Source of the DNA: a virus
Length of the DNA: 43,276 nucleotides
IMG/VR virus record: IMGVR_UViG_3300030090_005324
Span: 1 to 43,276 of that record
Direction: 5' to 3' (one strand)
The notes under the pieces were generated by a model. That model saw only the letters and a program-made list of their open reading frames with translations. It was not told where the DNA came from and searched no databases. This document shows, piece by piece, positions 2,838 through 28,603 of this stretch. Positions within the stretch are counted from its first letter, which is position 1, and each line of letters opens with the position of its first letter. A program made the position numbers and the translations under genes.

Positions 2838-4685
2838 ATGGCAGATACTAGTTTATTTTCAAGATTACAAAGACTTTTTTCAAGTGATGTTATTATTCGT
2901 AATGTAGGAGGAAAAAGACTTAAAGTAATGGATACGGGTAGAATTCAAAAATATGGAAATCTAGCTACAAATTCACTTTATGATAGATTTACAAGATTAC
3001 ATAAGCCTGTAGGATCTTCTTTACAATATAATCCTACACTTAACTACCAATCAATGCGGTTACAGCTTTATAGTGACTATGAAGCTATGGATCATGACCC
3101 TATTATAGCAGCTGCTCTTGATATAATTTCAGATGAAACTACTTCAAGAAATGAATATGGAGATGTTTTACAAATTAATTCTTCAAATGAAAATATTAGA
3201 AAAGTATTACATAATTTATTTTATGATGTTTTAAATATAGAATTTAACCTTCCTACTTGGGTTAGAAATATGGCTAAATATGGAGATTTTTATTTAAAAA
3301 TGGAAGTTTCAGAAAAATTTGGGGTATATAATGTTATACCATTATCAGTATATGAAGTAGTAAGGGAAGAAGGAACTGATCCTGAAAATCCTTCTTATAC
3401 AAGATTTACACTTGACCCTAATGGTTTAGCTAGTGGTGCTACTAACACAATTAGAAGAGATCAATTTCAATTAGAAAATTATGAAGTAGCTCATTTTAGA
3501 TTATTAACAGATTCAAATTATCTTCCTTATGGTAGAGCTTTTTTAGAACCTGCTCGTAAAGTATTTAAACAACTTATGTTAATGGAAGATGCTATGTTAA
3601 TTCATAGAATAATGAGAGCACCAGAAAAAAGGGTATTTTATATAAATATAGGTAATACTGATCCAGATAAAGTAGAACAATTTATGGCAGATACTGCTAA
3701 TAAAATGAAAAAAACACCTTATATAGATCAAAGTACAGGTGATTATAATCTTAAATTTAATATTCAAAATATGACTGAGGATTTCTTTATTCCTATTAGG
3801 GGTAATGATGCTTCAACTAGAATTGATACTACTAAAGGGTTAGATTATGATGGAACTACTGATATAGAATATTTAAAAAATAAAATGATGGCTGCTCTTA
3901 AAATACCTAAACCATTTTTAGGATATGAAGAAGGAGTAGAAGGAAAATCAACACTAGCAGGTATGGATATTCGTTTTGCACGAACAGTAGAACGTATACA
4001 AAGAATTGTAGAATCTGAATTAACAAAAATAGCTTTAGTACATTTATATTCACAAGGTTTTGACGATGAAGCATTAGTTGATTTTTCTTTAGAATTAACA
4101 ACACCATCTGTAATTTATGAACAAGAAAAAGTAGAATTATTTACAGCTAAAACAGCAGTAGCTCAAACTATGATAGATAATAAAATTTTTGGTAAAGATT
4201 GGGTATATGAACATATATATGGTTTATCTCCTGACGAATATGAAGATCAAAAAGAAGAATTAGTTAAAGATGCTATGGTTAGATTTAGAGTATCTCAAAT
4301 TGAAAATGAAGGAAACGATCCTGTAGAATCAGGAGTGTCTTATGGTACCCCTCATGATTTAGCTTCATTATATGGTAATAAAAGAGATAAAGCAGTAGGA
4401 CCTGCCCAAATCCCAACAGGTTATGATGAAAAAGACCCTGGTAGACCTATAGAAAGACCACAAAATTATGGGTCTGATAAAGGAAATTTAAGTAGAGATC
4501 CATTAGGTAAAGGAGGATTAGAAGTAGAACCTGTAGAAAAACCTACAAATAATAATAGAGTTTCTACATTCGAAAGAGCTAATATTAAAAAATCTTTACA
4601 AAAAATAAAGAAAAAGAAAAAAATATTAAAAGAAGAAACAGAAACAGGACTTTTATCTGAAAAAAATATTAAGTCTCAAAAATAA
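2838..4685 (+). CDS. Portal protein (gp20-like)
   Basis: 615 residues (T4 gp20: 524). The dodecameric portal sits at one capsid vertex, nucleates head assembly and docks the terminase. Recognisable conserved stretches are 'DHDPIIAAALDIISDE' near residue 80, 'MAKYGDFYLKME' near 145, 'LPYGRAFLEPARKVFKQL' near 230, 'EDAMLIHRIMRAPEKRVFY' near 250, and 'KKTPYID' followed by 'YLKNKMMAALKIPKP' near 340, all typical of T4-family portals. The C-terminal 100 residues are charged and low in complexity, ending in Lys/Glu-rich sequence, which is longer than in T4. Its position directly after the terminase and before the prohead core and protease genes matches the T4 late head order. Confidence 0.95.
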   Translation: MADTSLFSRLQRLFSSDVIIRNVGGKRLKVMDTGRIQKYGNLATNSLYDRFTRLHKPVGSSLQYNPTLNYQSMRLQLYSDYEAMDHDPIIAAALDIISDETTSRNEYGDVLQINSSNENIRKVLHNLFYDVLNIEFNLPTWVRNMAKYGDFYLKMEVSEKFGVYNVIPLSVYEVVREEGTDPENPSYTRFTLDPNGLASGATNTIRRDQFQLENYEVAHFRLLTDSNYLPYGRAFLEPARKVFKQLMLMEDAMLIHRIMRAPEKRVFYINIGNTDPDKVEQFMADTANKMKKTPYIDQSTGDYNLKFNIQNMTEDFFIPIRGNDASTRIDTTKGLDYDGTTDIEYLKNKMMAALKIPKPFLGYEEGVEGKSTLAGMDIRFARTVERIQRIVESELTKIALVHLYSQGFDDEALVDFSLELTTPSVIYEQEKVELFTAKTAVAQTMIDNKIFGKDWVYEHIYGLSPDEYEDQKEELVKDAMVRFRVSQIENEGNDPVESGVSYGTPHDLASLYGNKRDKAVGPAQIPTGYDEKDPGRPIERPQNYGSDKGNLSRDPLGKGGLEVEPVEKPTNNNRVSTFERANIKKSLQKIKKKKKILKEETETGLLSEKNIKSQK

Positions 4686-21829: not shown

Positions 21830-24826
21830 ATGGCAGAACAAATTATCTCACCAGGTGTATTTACAAGAGAAAACGACTTATCATTCTTACCTCAAGGAAT
21901 AGGTCAAATAGGAGCAGCAATTATAGGACCAACAGAAAAAGGACCTGCTTTTGTTCCAACAGTAGTAAGAAGTTTTTCAGATTTTGAAAGACGATTCGGA
22001 CCTTTAAGTTCAACAACATATGTCCCTCAAACAGTTTTAGAATATTTAAAAAATGCAGGGTCAGTAACAGTATGTAGAGTATTAGCAGGAGGTGGCTATA
22101 CTTTTGCAAATGGAACTAATGAATTTATAGTTTTAGCAGCTTCTGGTTCAGAAAAAGCTGGAGGGGTAAAAGATGATGTTATATTAGGTGTACTTTATCC
22201 ATCACAATTTGATGGAGTACCTGATTTAAAAGATACAACTTTAACTTCAAATGAAGGAACAGGAACTAATGATTTAGATCAAAACTTTAATATAGTATTA
22301 AGTGGTTCTGGTATTACTAGAACACCAATTTCTGCCTCTGTTAATCCAGCTAATAAAAATTATTTATTTAAAAGATTAGGAGACAAACCTTCAAATAGTA
22401 AAAATGGAGCTAACCAATACACAGGTACTCCAGCATACACATATAAAAATTGGAAAAATTTACAAACAAGTATATTTAATACAGTTGCAGAATCTACTAC
22501 AATAACTTTTGGAACTACTACTGACACTATATTAACAGCAAGTTTACAAAATATAGCTTTAAGTGCTACAGGTGCATTTTATTTTTCTGTTATGGACGTC
22601 GATGGACCTGTTGAGACGCGTACAAGTCATACTTTAGTTTTTTCTGGTAGTGGAGAAGCTTTAGGAGGAAAAGCACCAACTACACAAATATCAGGTTCTG
22701 TATTATTTGTAGCTTTAGATTCAACTACAGTTGTACCAGCATTAACTACATCAGCATCCTTTGCTGATATATCTACAGCATTTAGAGATAGAATTAATAC
22801 TTTTACACCTTTTAATAATTTAGTTTCAGCTTCATCTGGTACATCAGATGGAAAAGCTACAGTAACTTTAACTCAACTAGATGCAGGAGCTACATTAGAT
22901 ATGACTACAAATTTTGTTGCTGCTACAGCTTCTGTTGCTATAGGAACTCAAGGTACAAATATTACAGGATATTCGCTTAGTTCAGGAAAACAACTTAAAC
23001 TAATTACACAGTCAGCTGATATGGTGTATAGTGGAGAAATTGGTCAAGAAGAAGGATATGGATATGCTTCTACACCATTTATACAATCACAGTTTTTAGA
23101 TGTAAATAAAAATACTCAAAATTTATTTAAATTCCATACTTTATATCATGGAAAAGGAGTAGCTAAAGAATATAAGGTAAGTATTGCTAATTTAAGAGAA
23201 CCAAGTGATATTGATGGTGAAGAACAATATTCACAATTTTCAGTAATTTTTAGAACATATGGTGATAAAGATAAAGCACCTCGTATTATAGAACAATATA
23301 ATAAAGTAACTCTAGATCCAAATTCACCACGTTACATTTCAAGAGTAATTGGAGATAGATACCCACAATATAACGACGTTTTAGGTAAAGTAGAATTATT
23401 AGGTAACTATCCTAATATTTCAAGATTATGTAGAGTAGAAGTAGCTAATGAAGTAGCTGAAAGATCATTATCACCAAAATTATCACCTAAAGGATTTGCT
23501 GCAGTAACAAACCCAATTAGAACTGCTTCATTAAGTATACCATGTACTGTTCCTTCAGCATCGTATGAAACAATACAACAAGTAGGAACTAGTGGAACTT
23601 ATAATAGTAAAGGATATTTAGGATGGAAATTTAAAGATAAAGAAACTGACAATGAAAACTTTATATGTCCATTACCAGATGGAGCAGAATTAAATGTATT
23701 TGGTGCATTTAATGTTGAAAATTATTTTGGACACGCAAGTTCAAGTTTATGGTCAGGATCTTTAAGTGCTTCAATTGATACAACAGGAGACACAGGACCT
23801 AAAAATACACAACTTAAATTTACAGTACCTTTTCAAGGAGGAGATGATGGTATAGCTCCATATACTATAAAGAAAATTGGTCAATACATTACTAGTACTA
23901 ATGTATATGGGTTTGATTTAAGCGCTACTAATAAAGCAGGATATAAAGGATATAAAAAAGCTATTGACATATTATCAAATCAAGATGAATATGATATTAA
24001 TATGTTAGTAACACCTGGTGTTATTCATTCATTACACCCATTAATTACAAATTTAGGTATTGATATGTGTGAAGATAGAGGTGATGCATTTTATGTAATG
24101 GATTTAAACATACAAGAAGCCGCAGTAAACACTGCTGTAAGCAACGTAGATGGGTTAGACACTAATTATGCTGCTGTTTATTATCCATGGGTTAAAGTAC
24201 TTGATTCTTCAATTAATAAACCTGTATTAGTTCCACCATCAGTAATAGTTCCAGGAGCAATAGCTGCTTCAGATAGAATAGGAGCTGAATGGTTCGCACC
24301 TGCAGGTTTAAATAGAGGTATTTTAGGTAATGTATTAGAAGCTAAAATTAGATTAAATCAAGCTGAAAGAGATACTCTATATGATTCTAAAATTAACCCA
24401 ATAGCTACATTCCCTCAAACAGGAGTTTGTATTTGGGGTCAGAAAACATTACAAGAAAGATCAACAGCATTAGACAGAATTAATGTTCGTAGATTATTAA
24501 TAGCTCTTAAGAAATTTATTGCAAGTTCTTCTAGATATTTAGTATTTGAACAAAATACTTTACAAACTAGAACTAGATTCTTAAATATTGTAAATCCATA
24601 TTTAGAATCAGTACAACAACAACAAGGTTTATATGCCTTTAGAGTAGTAATGGATGAATCAAATAACACACCAGATGTAATTGATAGAAATCAATTAGTA
24701 GGAGGAATTTATTTACAACCTACTAAAACAGCTGAATTTATTATTTTAGATTTCAACATTTTACCAACAGGTGCTACATTTGATACAGGAGGCGGAGGAT
24801 CTGCAGGAGGAGGCGCAGGATATTAA
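21830..24826 (+). CDS. Tail sheath protein (gp18-like)
   Basis: 998 residues, much longer than T4 gp18 (659). The N-terminus 'ISPGVFTRENDLSFLPQG' and 'GAAIIGPTEKGPAFVPTVV' (about 27-45) plus 'VRSFSDFERRFGPL' are classical sheath sequence. The conserved C-terminal half includes 'WGQKTLQERSTALDRINVRR' (about 870-890), 'LVFEQNTLQTRTRFLNIV' and 'PTKTAEFIILDFNILPTGATF'. Extra length comes from a central Ser/Thr-rich beta insertion (about 215-390) resembling the one in the protein at 12240. The end is a Gly-rich tail (GGGGSAGGGAGY). Sheath subunits polymerise around the tube and contract to drive it through the envelope. Confidence 0.96.
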   Translation: MAEQIISPGVFTRENDLSFLPQGIGQIGAAIIGPTEKGPAFVPTVVRSFSDFERRFGPLSSTTYVPQTVLEYLKNAGSVTVCRVLAGGGYTFANGTNEFIVLAASGSEKAGGVKDDVILGVLYPSQFDGVPDLKDTTLTSNEGTGTNDLDQNFNIVLSGSGITRTPISASVNPANKNYLFKRLGDKPSNSKNGANQYTGTPAYTYKNWKNLQTSIFNTVAESTTITFGTTTDTILTASLQNIALSATGAFYFSVMDVDGPVETRTSHTLVFSGSGEALGGKAPTTQISGSVLFVALDSTTVVPALTTSASFADISTAFRDRINTFTPFNNLVSASSGTSDGKATVTLTQLDAGATLDMTTNFVAATASVAIGTQGTNITGYSLSSGKQLKLITQSADMVYSGEIGQEEGYGYASTPFIQSQFLDVNKNTQNLFKFHTLYHGKGVAKEYKVSIANLREPSDIDGEEQYSQFSVIFRTYGDKDKAPRIIEQYNKVTLDPNSPRYISRVIGDRYPQYNDVLGKVELLGNYPNISRLCRVEVANEVAERSLSPKLSPKGFAAVTNPIRTASLSIPCTVPSASYETIQQVGTSGTYNSKGYLGWKFKDKETDNENFICPLPDGAELNVFGAFNVENYFGHASSSLWSGSLSASIDTTGDTGPKNTQLKFTVPFQGGDDGIAPYTIKKIGQYITSTNVYGFDLSATNKAGYKGYKKAIDILSNQDEYDINMLVTPGVIHSLHPLITNLGIDMCEDRGDAFYVMDLNIQEAAVNTAVSNVDGLDTNYAAVYYPWVKVLDSSINKPVLVPPSVIVPGAIAASDRIGAEWFAPAGLNRGILGNVLEAKIRLNQAERDTLYDSKINPIATFPQTGVCIWGQKTLQERSTALDRINVRRLLIALKKFIASSSRYLVFEQNTLQTRTRFLNIVNPYLESVQQQQGLYAFRVVMDESNNTPDVIDRNQLVGGIYLQPTKTAEFIILDFNILPTGATFDTGGGGSAGGGAGY

Positions 24827-24878: not shown

Positions 24879-25364
24879 ATGGCAATATTAAGTACAAATG
24901 AAATGATGTTTACAGCATTTGAACCTAAACTACAAAATAGGTTTCTAATGGAAATTGAAGGCATCCCAGCATACCTTATTAAAAAAGTAGCTAGACCAAG
25001 TATTACTTTTGGAGAAGTAGTTCTCGATCATATTAACGTGAAAAGAAAAATTAAAGGTAAAGCTAATTGGGACAACATTACTATGGATTTATATGATCCT
25101 GTAACCCCTTCAGGAGCACAAGCTGTAATGGAATGGGTTCGTTTATCACATGAATCAGTAACAGGTAGAGATGGTTATTCAGATTTCTATAAAAAAGATG
25201 TATACATCCGTACTTTAGGTCCTGTAGGTGATGTTGTTGAAGAATGGATTTTAAAAGGAGCTTATTGTCAAAATGCTAATTTTGGTGACATGGACTGGAC
25301 ATCAGAAACACCAGCAAATATTAACATAACAGTTGTAATGGACTATGCTATCTTAAATTATTAA
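24879..25364 (+). CDS. Tail tube protein (gp19-like)
   Basis: 161 residues, close to T4 gp19 (163). Typical features: 'FEPKLQNRFLMEIEGIPAYL' (14-33), 'IKKVARPSITFGEVVLDHIN' (34-53) and 'DNITMDLYDPVTPSGAQAVM' (64-83). 'EEWILKGAYCQNANFGDMDW' (about 120-139) and 'INITVVMDYAILNY' at the C-terminus complete the tube fold. It stacks as hexamers to make the tube inside the sheath. It follows gp18 as in T4 and is closed by a perfect terminator. Confidence 0.96.
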   Translation: MAILSTNEMMFTAFEPKLQNRFLMEIEGIPAYLIKKVARPSITFGEVVLDHINVKRKIKGKANWDNITMDLYDPVTPSGAQAVMEWVRLSHESVTGRDGYSDFYKKDVYIRTLGPVGDVVEEWILKGAYCQNANFGDMDWTSETPANINITVVMDYAILNY

Positions 25365-25459: not shown

Positions 25460-26215
25460 ATGACAGAAAATAAAAAACCATTATTTCCTACAGAAGACAT
25501 TAAATTACCATCAAAAGGTTTACTTTACCCTGAAGAGTCTCCATTAAGTAAAGGAGTTATTGAAATGAAATACATGACTGCTAAAGAGGAAGACATCTTA
25601 ACAAACCAAAATTTTATTGAAAATGGTACAGTAATTGATAAATTATTAAAATCCCTTATTGTTGGTAAAATAGATTACAGTAAATTACTGTTAGGAGATA
25701 AAAATGCATTATTATTAGCAGCTCGTATCTTAGGATATGGTCCTGACTATACTTTTGAATATAGAGGTGAAAAAATAACTATTAATTTATCTGAAGTTGA
25801 AGATATAATAATAGATGAATCTTTAATTAAAACAAAAGGATTAAATGAATTTGACTTTACTTTACCTCATTCAAAAGTTAATTTAACTTTTAAGTTTTTA
25901 ACTCATGGAGATGAAACATCTATTAATAATGAGATAAAAGGTCTTAGAAAAATTAATAAAAATTCTTCTACTGAAGGATCTACTAGACTAAAACATACTA
26001 TTGTAGCTGTAGATGAAAATAGAGACAGAAAATTTATTAGAGAATTTGTTGATAATAGCTTTTTAGCTAGAGATGCAAGAGAATTTAGAAATTATATTAG
26101 AAAAATCCAACCCAGTGTCGACTTAACATACAATTATGAAGACAGGAGAGGGAATATTGAAAAAATAAATATTCCTGTTGGTATTAAGTTTTTTTGGCCT
26201 GACGCCACAATATAG
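25460..26215 (+). CDS. Tail/baseplate-hub assembly protein, gp26-like (zero-frame product)
   Basis: 251 residues (T4 gp26: 208). Conserved sequence: 'LPSKGLLYPEESPLSKGVIE' (16-35), 'MKYMTAKEEDILTNQNFIEN' (36-55), 'DKLLKSLIVGKI' and 'GDKNALLLAARILGYGPDYT' (79-98), matching the T4 gp26-type baseplate/hub family. The C-terminus runs 'IPVGIKFFWPDATI' and stops at 26215. The codons for KFFW contain seven T (26189-26195), and a second reading frame continues without its own clear start, so this gene probably also yields a longer frameshifted product. Placement just before the tape measure gene is that of tail assembly chaperones in other tailed phages. Confidence 0.82.
   Translation: MTENKKPLFPTEDIKLPSKGLLYPEESPLSKGVIEMKYMTAKEEDILTNQNFIENGTVIDKLLKSLIVGKIDYSKLLLGDKNALLLAARILGYGPDYTFEYRGEKITINLSEVEDIIIDESLIKTKGLNEFDFTLPHSKVNLTFKFLTHGDETSINNEIKGLRKINKNSSTEGSTRLKHTIVAVDENRDRKFIREFVDNSFLARDAREFRNYIRKIQPSVDLTYNYEDRRGNIEKINIPVGIKFFWPDATI
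26189..26207 (+). promoter_or_regulatory. Candidate programmed frameshift site (seven T plus small hairpin)
   Basis: Seven T at 26189-26195 read as TTT TTT TGG in the zero frame. A +1 slip (or -2) enters the frame of the following coding stretch. TGGC (26195-26198) and GCCA (26204-26207) can form a small stem directly after the run. Function is inferred. Confidence 0.55.
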
Positions 26216-26456
26216 AAATCTTTTATTTACCCAAATACATGACCTGGTGTTCCATGGTGGTGGTGGATTCCAACATTCAAGCGTATATAACATGCCTATT
26301 TGGTTAAGAAGATTTCACATCCAAAAGATTAATGAACATAATAAAGAAGAAAATGAAAGGATGGAAAAAGCAAAAAAAGGGTCTCCACTTAATAAAAACA
26401 ATAAAATACATGGGCCTAATATAAACCCTTCATCAACATATAACTTCAAAAAGTAA
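26196..26456 (+). CDS. Frameshift extension of the gp26-like protein (or separate small gene with weak start)
   Basis: This frame carries a conserved-looking sequence: 'GLTPQYRNLLFTQIHDLVFH' then 'GGGGFQHSSVYNMPIWLRRF' and 'HIQKINEHNKEENERMEKAK'. Upstream in this frame there is a TAA at 26166 and only CTG (26175) and TTG (26178) as possible starts before the protein-like region; the first ATG (26292) would remove the best part. The simplest explanation is expression as a fusion with residues 1-245 of the gp26-like protein through the T-run, giving about 331 residues. A separate TTG-initiated gene of 92 residues at 26178 is the alternative. It ends in a terminator hairpin that overlaps its stop codon. 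Confidence 0.6.
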   Translation, partial: GLTPQYRNLLFTQIHDLVFHGGGGFQHSSVYNMPIWLRRFHIQKINEHNKEENERMEKAKKGSPLNKNNKIHGPNINPSSTYNFKK

Positions 26457-26484
26457 AGATATCATAGATATCTTTCTTTTTTTT
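26455..26484 (+). terminator. Intrinsic terminator after the chaperone genes
   Basis: Perfect 9-bp stem AAAGATATC (26455-26463), loop ATA, GATATCTTT (26467-26475), followed by C and eight T. The first stem bases belong to the TAA stop codon of the preceding frame. Confidence 0.85.
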
Positions 26485-26518: not shown

Positions 26519-28603
26519 ATGGCTAGAGGAGATAAAAAAACAAATGATGCTTTAATTAGTGGTACTGAAGCTATTAAAAGGCAAAAAGAAGGACTCCAAG
26601 AACTAAATAAAATGTTTAGTAATTTGGGGGACAATATATCTCGTCAAATATCTAATGTTTTAGGTATATCACAAGAATTAGGAAACGCAACTGAAAGAGT
26701 ATCAGACATATATAAAAATGATATAGCTAAACATATATCAAATGCTGCATCAAGTTTAAATAAACAATCTGACATTCAAAAGAAAATACTCGCTGGAGAA
26801 AATGCCTCTAAAGATATTAATGATGCTTTAGCTAAAAATAAAGCAAGAACTAGAGCTCTTATTGATAAAATAAGAATAATGAAAAAAAATGGTTTAGCAA
26901 TAGATCATGAACAAATTAAAGCAGCTAGAATAGCTCATAAAATAGAAAAAGAAACACTAGAAGAACAACTCAAACAAAATGTAGAAAGAAAAAGAGAAGA
27001 TGGAATTATAAAAGGTATAGGTAAAGCTTTATTAGACAATGTTGATAAACTAGATAAATCAGGAAATTTATCAAAAATACTTTCAGGTAATTTAAGTGAT
27101 ATGACAATGGGAGATGTTGGGGCTGCTGGTCAAGGTATGTTTATAAAATTTCTATTAGATGGTATAACACTAGTAAGTAAACTTGAATCAGAACTTAATA
27201 AAACATTAGGTTTATCATTAAAACAAGCTTCAGCTTTAAGACAACAATTTGCACAAGTTGCTTTAGCTACAAATAATGTTTCTATAAACTCAAGAGATAT
27301 TCAATCAACTTTTATGAGTTTAAATGAGCAGTTTGGAACTGCTAGTACTGTTTTAAGAAACGATATAGTAGCAGAAATGGCTATATTAGGAAAACTAACA
27401 GGCATGTCTGCAGAATCTCAAATGAGATTTGCTTCTACTATGATGAGAACAGGAAAAAGTGCCGAAGTAGTAACAGCAGAATCTCGAAAAGCAATAGTGA
27501 ATGCTGAAAAAGAACACGGAGTTAGGTTAGATATAAATAAAGTAATGGATGAAGCAGGTAAAATATCAGGAATGATAGCTGCTAATTTAGGTTATAATAT
27601 AACTGCTATTGCAGGAGCAGTAGCTAAAGCTAAACAATTTGGTATGACACTTCAAGGTTTAGCTGATATTAGTAATAATATGTTAGACTTTCAATCTTCA
27701 ATTGAAGCTGAATTACAAGCAGAATTATTTATTGGTAGAGACTTAAATTTAGAAAGAGCCAGATTATACGCACTAACAGGAGACTATGCAAATTTAGCAG
27801 AAGAAATAAAACATAATGCTGGTGGAGAACTTGCTTTTGCTCGAATGAATGTTTTAGAAAAACAAAAATTAGCAGCAGCTTTAGGAATGAGTGCAGATCA
27901 AATGTCAGATATGTTATTTAATCAAGCAAATTTAGCTGAACTAGCTCAAGAAGCTAGAGCAAATGGAGAAGATGACCTAGCAGATATGCTTGAAAAACGA
28001 GACATGCAACAACAATTTAATGATTTAGTAGAAAAAGTACAAATGACTTTTGTAGATATAGCTAATGGTCCATTAGGAATGATTGCAAATTTAATGGTAT
28101 CTATTTTAGATAGTAGTTTTGGATTTTTTGCAATAATGACTCTTATAGGAGGAATAAAAATAGCAGGTTTAATAATGAGTATGATGTCACTTTGGACTAC
28201 TTTAACAGCTGCAGGTATATCAGCAGCTACGTTAGCTTCTGCTCTTACTGTTGGTATAGCAGCTGTAGCAATTACAGCAGGAATTATAGCTATTGCATCA
28301 GCATCAACTAAATCATCAAAACAAGCACAAGCATCAAAACCTAAATTTGCTACAGGGGGTACAGTTGAACAAACAGGTATGGCTGAAGTACATGCTGGAG
28401 AAACTATAATCCCTGCAAAAGGATCAAATAATTTTCTTGAATTAGTAGCAGGCATTAATAAAATGGGAGGAAATGAAAAACAAATTAAAGAACTTATAAA
28501 TGTAAATAAAAAAAATGCACGAATAAACGAACAAAATCGTAAAGTGTCCTTTGATAATTTTGCTTTTGCAAAAGTAACAACAGATTATACAGGTTTTAGA
28601 TAA
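26519..28603 (+). CDS. Tape measure protein (gp29-like role)
   Basis: 694 residues. The first 200 are charged and helical with coiled-coil character. The middle is long helical sequence with typical phrases 'MFIKFLLDGITLVSKLESEL', 'LGLSLKQASALRQQFAQVAL' and 'EMAILGKLTGMSAESQMRFA'. Residues about 515-600 contain several hydrophobic segments (for example 'FAIMTLIGGIKIAGLIMSMM'), as expected for a tape measure that inserts into the inner membrane. The C-terminal 'KFATGGTVEQTGMAEVHAGE' followed by 'TIIPAKG' is a well-known ending of tape measure proteins. It directly follows the candidate frameshifting chaperone gene, the standard arrangement. It sets tail length and is ejected with the DNA. Confidence 0.88.
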   Translation: MARGDKKTNDALISGTEAIKRQKEGLQELNKMFSNLGDNISRQISNVLGISQELGNATERVSDIYKNDIAKHISNAASSLNKQSDIQKKILAGENASKDINDALAKNKARTRALIDKIRIMKKNGLAIDHEQIKAARIAHKIEKETLEEQLKQNVERKREDGIIKGIGKALLDNVDKLDKSGNLSKILSGNLSDMTMGDVGAAGQGMFIKFLLDGITLVSKLESELNKTLGLSLKQASALRQQFAQVALATNNVSINSRDIQSTFMSLNEQFGTASTVLRNDIVAEMAILGKLTGMSAESQMRFASTMMRTGKSAEVVTAESRKAIVNAEKEHGVRLDINKVMDEAGKISGMIAANLGYNITAIAGAVAKAKQFGMTLQGLADISNNMLDFQSSIEAELQAELFIGRDLNLERARLYALTGDYANLAEEIKHNAGGELAFARMNVLEKQKLAAALGMSADQMSDMLFNQANLAELAQEARANGEDDLADMLEKRDMQQQFNDLVEKVQMTFVDIANGPLGMIANLMVSILDSSFGFFAIMTLIGGIKIAGLIMSMMSLWTTLTAAGISAATLASALTVGIAAVAITAGIIAIASASTKSSKQAQASKPKFATGGTVEQTGMAEVHAGETIIPAKGSNNFLELVAGINKMGGNEKQIKELINVNKKNARINEQNRKVSFDNFAFAKVTTDYTGFR

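Follow-up and report, generated by a model that had tools for sequence, protein, structure and literature searches.

One gene of the viral sequence analyzed here, which encodes a gp26-like protein, is predicted to yield two tail assembly chaperones, a short and a long one, and the long one would best be explained by programmed +1 ribosomal frameshifting, in which the P-site tRNA slips on YUU_U while UGG occupies the A site. We put the probability of this reading at about 0.92. The window, i.e. the whole stretch of DNA that was analyzed, is the IMG/VR virus record IMGVR_UViG_3300030090_005324 with a length of 43 kb. The relevant features are:

24879 to 25364, plus strand: upstream gene for a gp19-like tail tube protein (phrog_4542, E=1.3e-28).
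25460 to 26215, plus strand: short form (G), a gp26-like tail assembly chaperone of 251 aa in the zero frame (phrog_150, sub-threshold PF12322, AlphaFold2/Foldseek).
25460 to 26456, plus strand: predicted long form (GT), a 331-residue fusion (...NIPVGIKFFGLTPQYR...) obtained by translation with one base skipped at UGG_C.
26189 to 26203, plus strand: frameshift site TTT TTT TGG CCT GAC (YTT TGG CC in relatives; blind scans).
26192 to 26194, plus strand: predicted P-site codon UUU, with the slip onto 26193 to 26195 and the A-site UGG at 26195 to 26197.
26196 to 26456, plus strand: T extension in the +1 frame, 86 aa (GLTPQYRNLLFTQIHDLVFHGGGGF...YNMPIWLRRF...), ending with TAA (conservation, coding signature, structure model, gp51 homology).
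26519 to 28603, plus strand: downstream gene for a probable tape measure protein of 694 aa (weak phrog_15478 tape measure match, E=2e-4).

The short form was assigned to the T4 gp26 family by its match to the 'baseplate hub' profile phrog_150 (E=1.8e-9). Its match to PF12322, the Pfam entry of the T4 gp26 family, is below the cut-off, while a relative of the window gene with zinc-ribbon cysteines (L219) reaches 71 bits and is above it. Structure prediction was run separately on the short form and on the extension. The AlphaFold2 model of the short form has a mean pLDDT of 92.9, and a Foldseek search with it matched many models of T4-like 'baseplate hub assembly proteins' (best E=5e-19). Sequence searches against solved structures gave no match for either part. 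The gene neighbourhood was also informative: of 204 relatives, 182 have a tube homologue directly 5' of the chaperone gene, and in 152 of 153 a long ORF begins less than 1 kb 3' of it, with a median gap of 46 nt. This order of tube gene, chaperone gene and long ORF is the location of G/GT genes; in the window, the tape measure gene is a tentative assignment from the weak PHROG match. Further upstream (21830-24826), the window encodes a very long tail sheath protein of 998 aa, in which the conserved sheath domains are found only in the last third.

The coordinates proposed in the earlier note for the gp26-like ORF, the T run and the second frame were all re-found in the sequence. The short form ends with KFFWPDATI, and its gene overlaps an open +1 frame at TTT TTT TGG CCT GAC, which contains a run of seven T (26189-26195). 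Directly after a TAA (26166-26168), the +1 frame opens at 26169 and continues to the stop codon at 26454-26456. As the note had stated, this frame contains no ATG or GTG before its conserved part; there is a TTG at 26178, and the first GTG (26247) lies already inside the conserved part. The proposed fusion has exactly 331 residues when TTT TTT is read, one T is skipped and translation continues with GGC.

The substitution pattern indicates that the extension evolves as a protein and is not a chance reading frame: in 1,003 codons past the short-form stop, the differences at codon positions 1, 2 and 3 were 0.24, 0.17 and 0.39, respectively. It is conserved from precisely the first codon read after the slip onward, beginning with the residues G-L-T, and further conserved residues are Y31, P34 and R38. 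The structure model of the extension is helical, with pLDDT values of 82-93 in the first 60 residues; a fold search with this model gave nothing significant. Membership in the family DUF6760 (PF20546) was considered and rejected, since the score was 18.3 bits against a curated cut-off of 27, and none of the five records searched was above it.

Apart from the window gene, the architecture with an extension in a shifted frame is common to its relatives. A protein search in IMG/VR retrieved 80 loci, and in all 80 the extension is in the +1 frame, as it also is in two isolates, the Flavobacterium phage immuto and the Microcystis phage Mel-JY01. The junctions of the 80 loci read TTT YTT TGG CCW GAC with almost no exceptions. 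A blind scan of IMG/VR with the 15-base DNA pattern TTTYTTTGGCCTGAC, in which the protein was not consulted, gave 120 loci, 118 of which are ends of gp26-like genes. A scan of genome contigs matched a single contig, within a MAG labelled Alphaproteobacteria. Altogether, YTT TGG CC is kept in 230 of 231 non-redundant relatives. Among the relatives, the closest +1-frame stop is 8 nt 5' of the P codon and the closest zero-frame stop is 9 nt after the start of UGG, so that only a few codons are left in which the frame can change. The overlap of the two frames and the slippery site are both conserved, as is expected of programmed ribosomal frameshifting.

The recurrence of the junction also bears on a trivial explanation, namely that an error of sequencing or assembly in a homopolymer split a single gene. 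Seven T in a metagenome contig are a plausible place for such an error, and according to the earlier note a run of six T would merge the two frames. Such an error is excluded, with a negligible remaining probability: relatives with as little as about 30% identity have this junction, and it is found again in many separate contigs, in the genomes of isolates and in variants that lack the homopolymer. Few loci deviate from the common pattern. One relative (L204) lacks the standard site and has TTT CTA TTC CCT instead, where UUU_C could slip. In a distant gp26-like gene (L415), AGT TTT TTC precedes the stop around oriented position 1317 and the extension is in the -1 frame.

The natural variation of the site is instructive with respect to the direction of the shift. 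In the 231 non-redundant sites the P codon is UUU (206), CUU (24) or UUC (1), and re-pairing of the P-site tRNA after a +1 slip is possible in 230 of them; the exception (L342) has TTT_T one codon upstream. At 70 sites found independently of the motif, in loci related to each other, the slip codon is UUU in 64 cases and CUU in 6. UUC is found at none of these 70 slip codons, against about 16% UUC among the Phe codons of the gene bodies.

A -2 frameshift, as was proposed for Mu, would lead to the identical final frame. In this case, the tRNA-Phe in the P site on the second UUU would slip two bases back onto UUU, and the window as well as 179 of 231 relatives would indeed allow perfect re-pairing. 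However, in the remaining 52 of the 231 sites the first Phe codon is TTC. There, after a -2 slip the tRNA would face UCU and be mismatched at the middle base, so that it does not re-pair, and therefore a -2 slip is not the shared mechanism. Furthermore, TTC in the second codon would be no obstacle to a -2 slip. A scan with the control pattern TTYTTCTGGCCTGAC, in which the slip codon alone is changed to TTC and the amino acids stay the same, gave a gp26 gene in only 1 of 120 matches, whereas with the TTC-first pattern TTCYTTTGGCCTGAC at least 54 of 120 matches were at gp26 ends. The sole gp26 match of the control is L342, which keeps TTT_T one codon earlier. In this locus, the region around 3513-3560 with the slip codon TTC contains an apparent partial duplication of the extension start (GLTYEFFGLTFEYN). 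In view of these counts, we consider a -2 frameshift very unlikely.

Still less probable is transcriptional slippage, in which RNA polymerase would stutter on the seven T and produce some mRNAs that are one base short. A run of seven T is present in the window and at 160 of 231 sites, and would suit such a mechanism, but at 70 of the 231 sites there are only three or four T, and these sites keep the architecture and the frame. Since runs of three or four T are too short for polymerase slippage, it is not the shared mechanism either. The run of seven T, the conservation of which the earlier note had proposed to check, is itself not conserved; the invariant part is YTT TGG CC.

Taken together, the TTC-first variants and the almost universal UUU or CUU in front of UGG (230 of 231 sites) lead to a +1 slip on YUU_U(GG). 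The comparative sequence evidence thereby supports the proposal of a programmed frameshift in a T4-type gp26 tail chaperone. Of its two options on poly-T, +1 or -2, the +1 direction is retained, while -2 and the poly-T are given up, since variants with TTC first or CTT second are common and disrupt both the -2 re-pairing and the T run. UGG is invariant in the A site, but TGG CCT GAC is read in both frames (as W-P-D and as G-L-T), and its conservation is therefore partly a matter of double coding, W-P in one frame and G-L in the other. To our knowledge, UGG has no status as a starved codon. CUU and UUU are among the codons most prone to +1 slips in prfB-type sites (PMC10885494). Universal stimulators were looked for on both sides of the site. 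Downstream RNA folding was weakly stronger than in the control (mean z -0.64 vs -0.13) and not conserved; upstream Shine-Dalgarno-like tetramers were present in 32% of the loci, compared with 13% of control windows, and were not conserved either. In the nearest relatives of the window TTT is preferred over TTC at the preceding codon, for which slippage in the P site alone is an insufficient explanation.

It could be argued that the extension is an independent gene, translated from a non-standard or internal start codon or by translational coupling. The TTG mentioned above could serve for this purpose, internal starts were picked by the annotators of immuto and P-SSM2, and two relatives (L456 and L461) carry the extension as a separate copy starting with ATG. 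However, ATG, GTG and TTG are all absent in frame before the slip in 89 of 230 loci, and in 54 of 230 even up to 45 nt past the short-form stop. Moreover, the slip marks precisely where conservation begins, and the slip codon itself is constrained. With no conserved start, independent initiation was rejected for the bulk of the relatives, for which it has a very low probability, and accepted for L456 and L461 only. In these two the extension starts with an ATG of its own and forms a separate gene in the other frame, and the frameshift architecture is lost. The possibility raised earlier that relatives encode the extension as a normal gene thus applies to a very small group. In the public annotation of immuto (L202, 4348-4458) the extension is a separate hypothetical gene with a truncated product of 36 aa; in that of Mel-JY01 (L203, 4249-4485) it likewise appears as a hypothetical gene of its own, whose frame begins shortly before the slip. 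More generally, the public annotations of immuto, Mel-JY01, P-SSM2 and Syn9 present the extension as a gene in its own right, often a truncated one.

In the proposed +1 frameshift model, most ribosomes would terminate at 26213 and release the short form of 251 residues. A minority would pause while tRNA-Phe is paired with UUU in the P site and the A site holds UGG; in relatives with CUU, tRNA-Leu would occupy the P site instead. The P-site tRNA would then move one base forward onto UUU, so that the next codon would be GGC, and the shifted ribosomes would read on into the small helical domain, giving the long form of 331 residues. By analogy to lambda gpG/gpGT, coating of the tape measure protein would fall to the short form, and the extension, at low stoichiometry, would serve to recruit tube subunits. 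We infer that the +1 slip occurs in cells, and the same applies to its efficiency and to the chaperone roles.

The end of the gp26 gene is also of interest in other T4-like phages. In P-SSM2 (L488), Syn9 (L489) and HTVC008M (L490), a domain annotated as gp51 is located in the -1 frame at the gp26 end, preceded by a T run ending with TTT TTC or TTT TTT, which corresponds to a conserved heptamer U_UUU_UUY. The heptamer T_TTT_TTC (U_UUU_UUC) is kept in all 57 non-redundant metagenomic relatives of the P-SSM2 gene, which are close relatives (from L491-L570). Since many of them have an ATG just after the stop, independent initiation of the gp51 domain may be an alternative in this group. A GGAGGG-like element is present about 12 nt upstream in many gp26/gp51 loci of cyanophages and pelagiphages.

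In T4 (L205), gp26 and gp51 are encoded separately, are listed as hub assembly chaperones, and gp51 is essential and of unknown function (PMC3004832). Both match PF12322 and phrog_150, gp51 over its full length, and of the two only gp51 matches phrog_634, the cyanophage gp51 family. Profile comparison of T4 gp26 with gp51 gave 99%. With hhalign, the extension of the window clade matched the cyanophage domain at 93%, and the cyanophage domain matched the end of T4 gp51 at 96%, while the direct comparison of the extension with T4 gp51 reached only 20%; the three tested extension scores were all above those of 100 column shuffles. The homology to the C-terminal domain of T4 and cyanophage gp51 was thus found between profiles by way of the cyanophage domain, and there was a signal only with family profiles, none between the extension and single T4 sequences. 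On the basis of these matches, T4 gp26 and gp51 are paralogues, and gp51 has an additional C-terminal domain related to the extension of the window clade. The natural reading would be that T4 duplicated the gene and separated the short (gp26) and the long form (gp51). We regard it as rather likely that G/GT is general in T4-like phages, by a +1 shift in this clade, a -1 shift in cyanophages and pelagiphages, a separate gene in L456 and L461, and duplication in T4. The earlier suggestion that the rule known from lambda and Mu extends to T4-like phages was right, and it goes further than proposed, with cyanophages appearing to use -1 and T4 duplication.

A review counts G-T frameshifting as a conserved feature of long-tailed phages, with T4 as the exception, and states that -1, -2 and +1 shifts are all known (PMC5009743). 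In lambda (gpG/gpGT), P2 (E/E'), HK97 and others, as predicted here, a single gene immediately upstream of the tape measure gene gives a short and a long chaperone, and the shift takes place near the short-form end and adds a C-terminal extension. There, however, the slips are -1 slips on heptamers, not +1 on YUU_UGG. No sequence relation of the window chaperone to gpG was found, and the match of its fold to the HK97 chaperone structure 2ob9 was not significant (E=1.5). In phage Mu the extension is also in the +1/-2 frame, but the natural variants described here exclude -2 as the shared mechanism. The shift in the tail chaperone gene of the haloarchaeal myovirus HSTV-2 was called 'very likely +1' (PMC5009743), which is the direction predicted here, in a myovirus as well, although HSTV-2 is an archaeal virus. 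In bacterial prfB (RF2; CUU_UGA) and influenza PA-X (UCC_UUU_CGU), too, the P-site tRNA slips by +1, on CUU_U or UUU. Their function differs from that of the tail chaperone, and prfB has a stop codon and a fixed internal Shine-Dalgarno sequence, while the site in the window has the sense codon UGG and no such fixed element. T4 and cyanophage gp26/gp51 are homologous to the window clade in the chaperone domain and the C-terminal domain, and differ from its +1 arrangement by two separate paralogous genes in T4 and by a -1 frame behind U_UUU_UUC in cyanophages. In the literature, with subscription papers mostly outside the reach of our search, we found no paper on a shift in a T4-like gp26 gene. 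Frameshifted tail chaperones as a kind are known and a +1 case was proposed with HSTV-2; what is new is the type of site (YUU_UGG), its family (T4-like), and a direction of the shift that depends on the lineage at a homologous joint.

Our results suggest that T4-like phages, the exception named in the review (PMC5009743), have G-T frameshifting, and that at one and the same joint the direction of the shift depends on the lineage. The relatives amount to a large natural collection of +1 sites with a sense codon (YUU_UGG), which is useful because +1 sites have no general motif (PMC10885494). Last but not least, T4 gp51, which is essential and has had no assigned function (PMC3004832), would gain a concrete and testable role.
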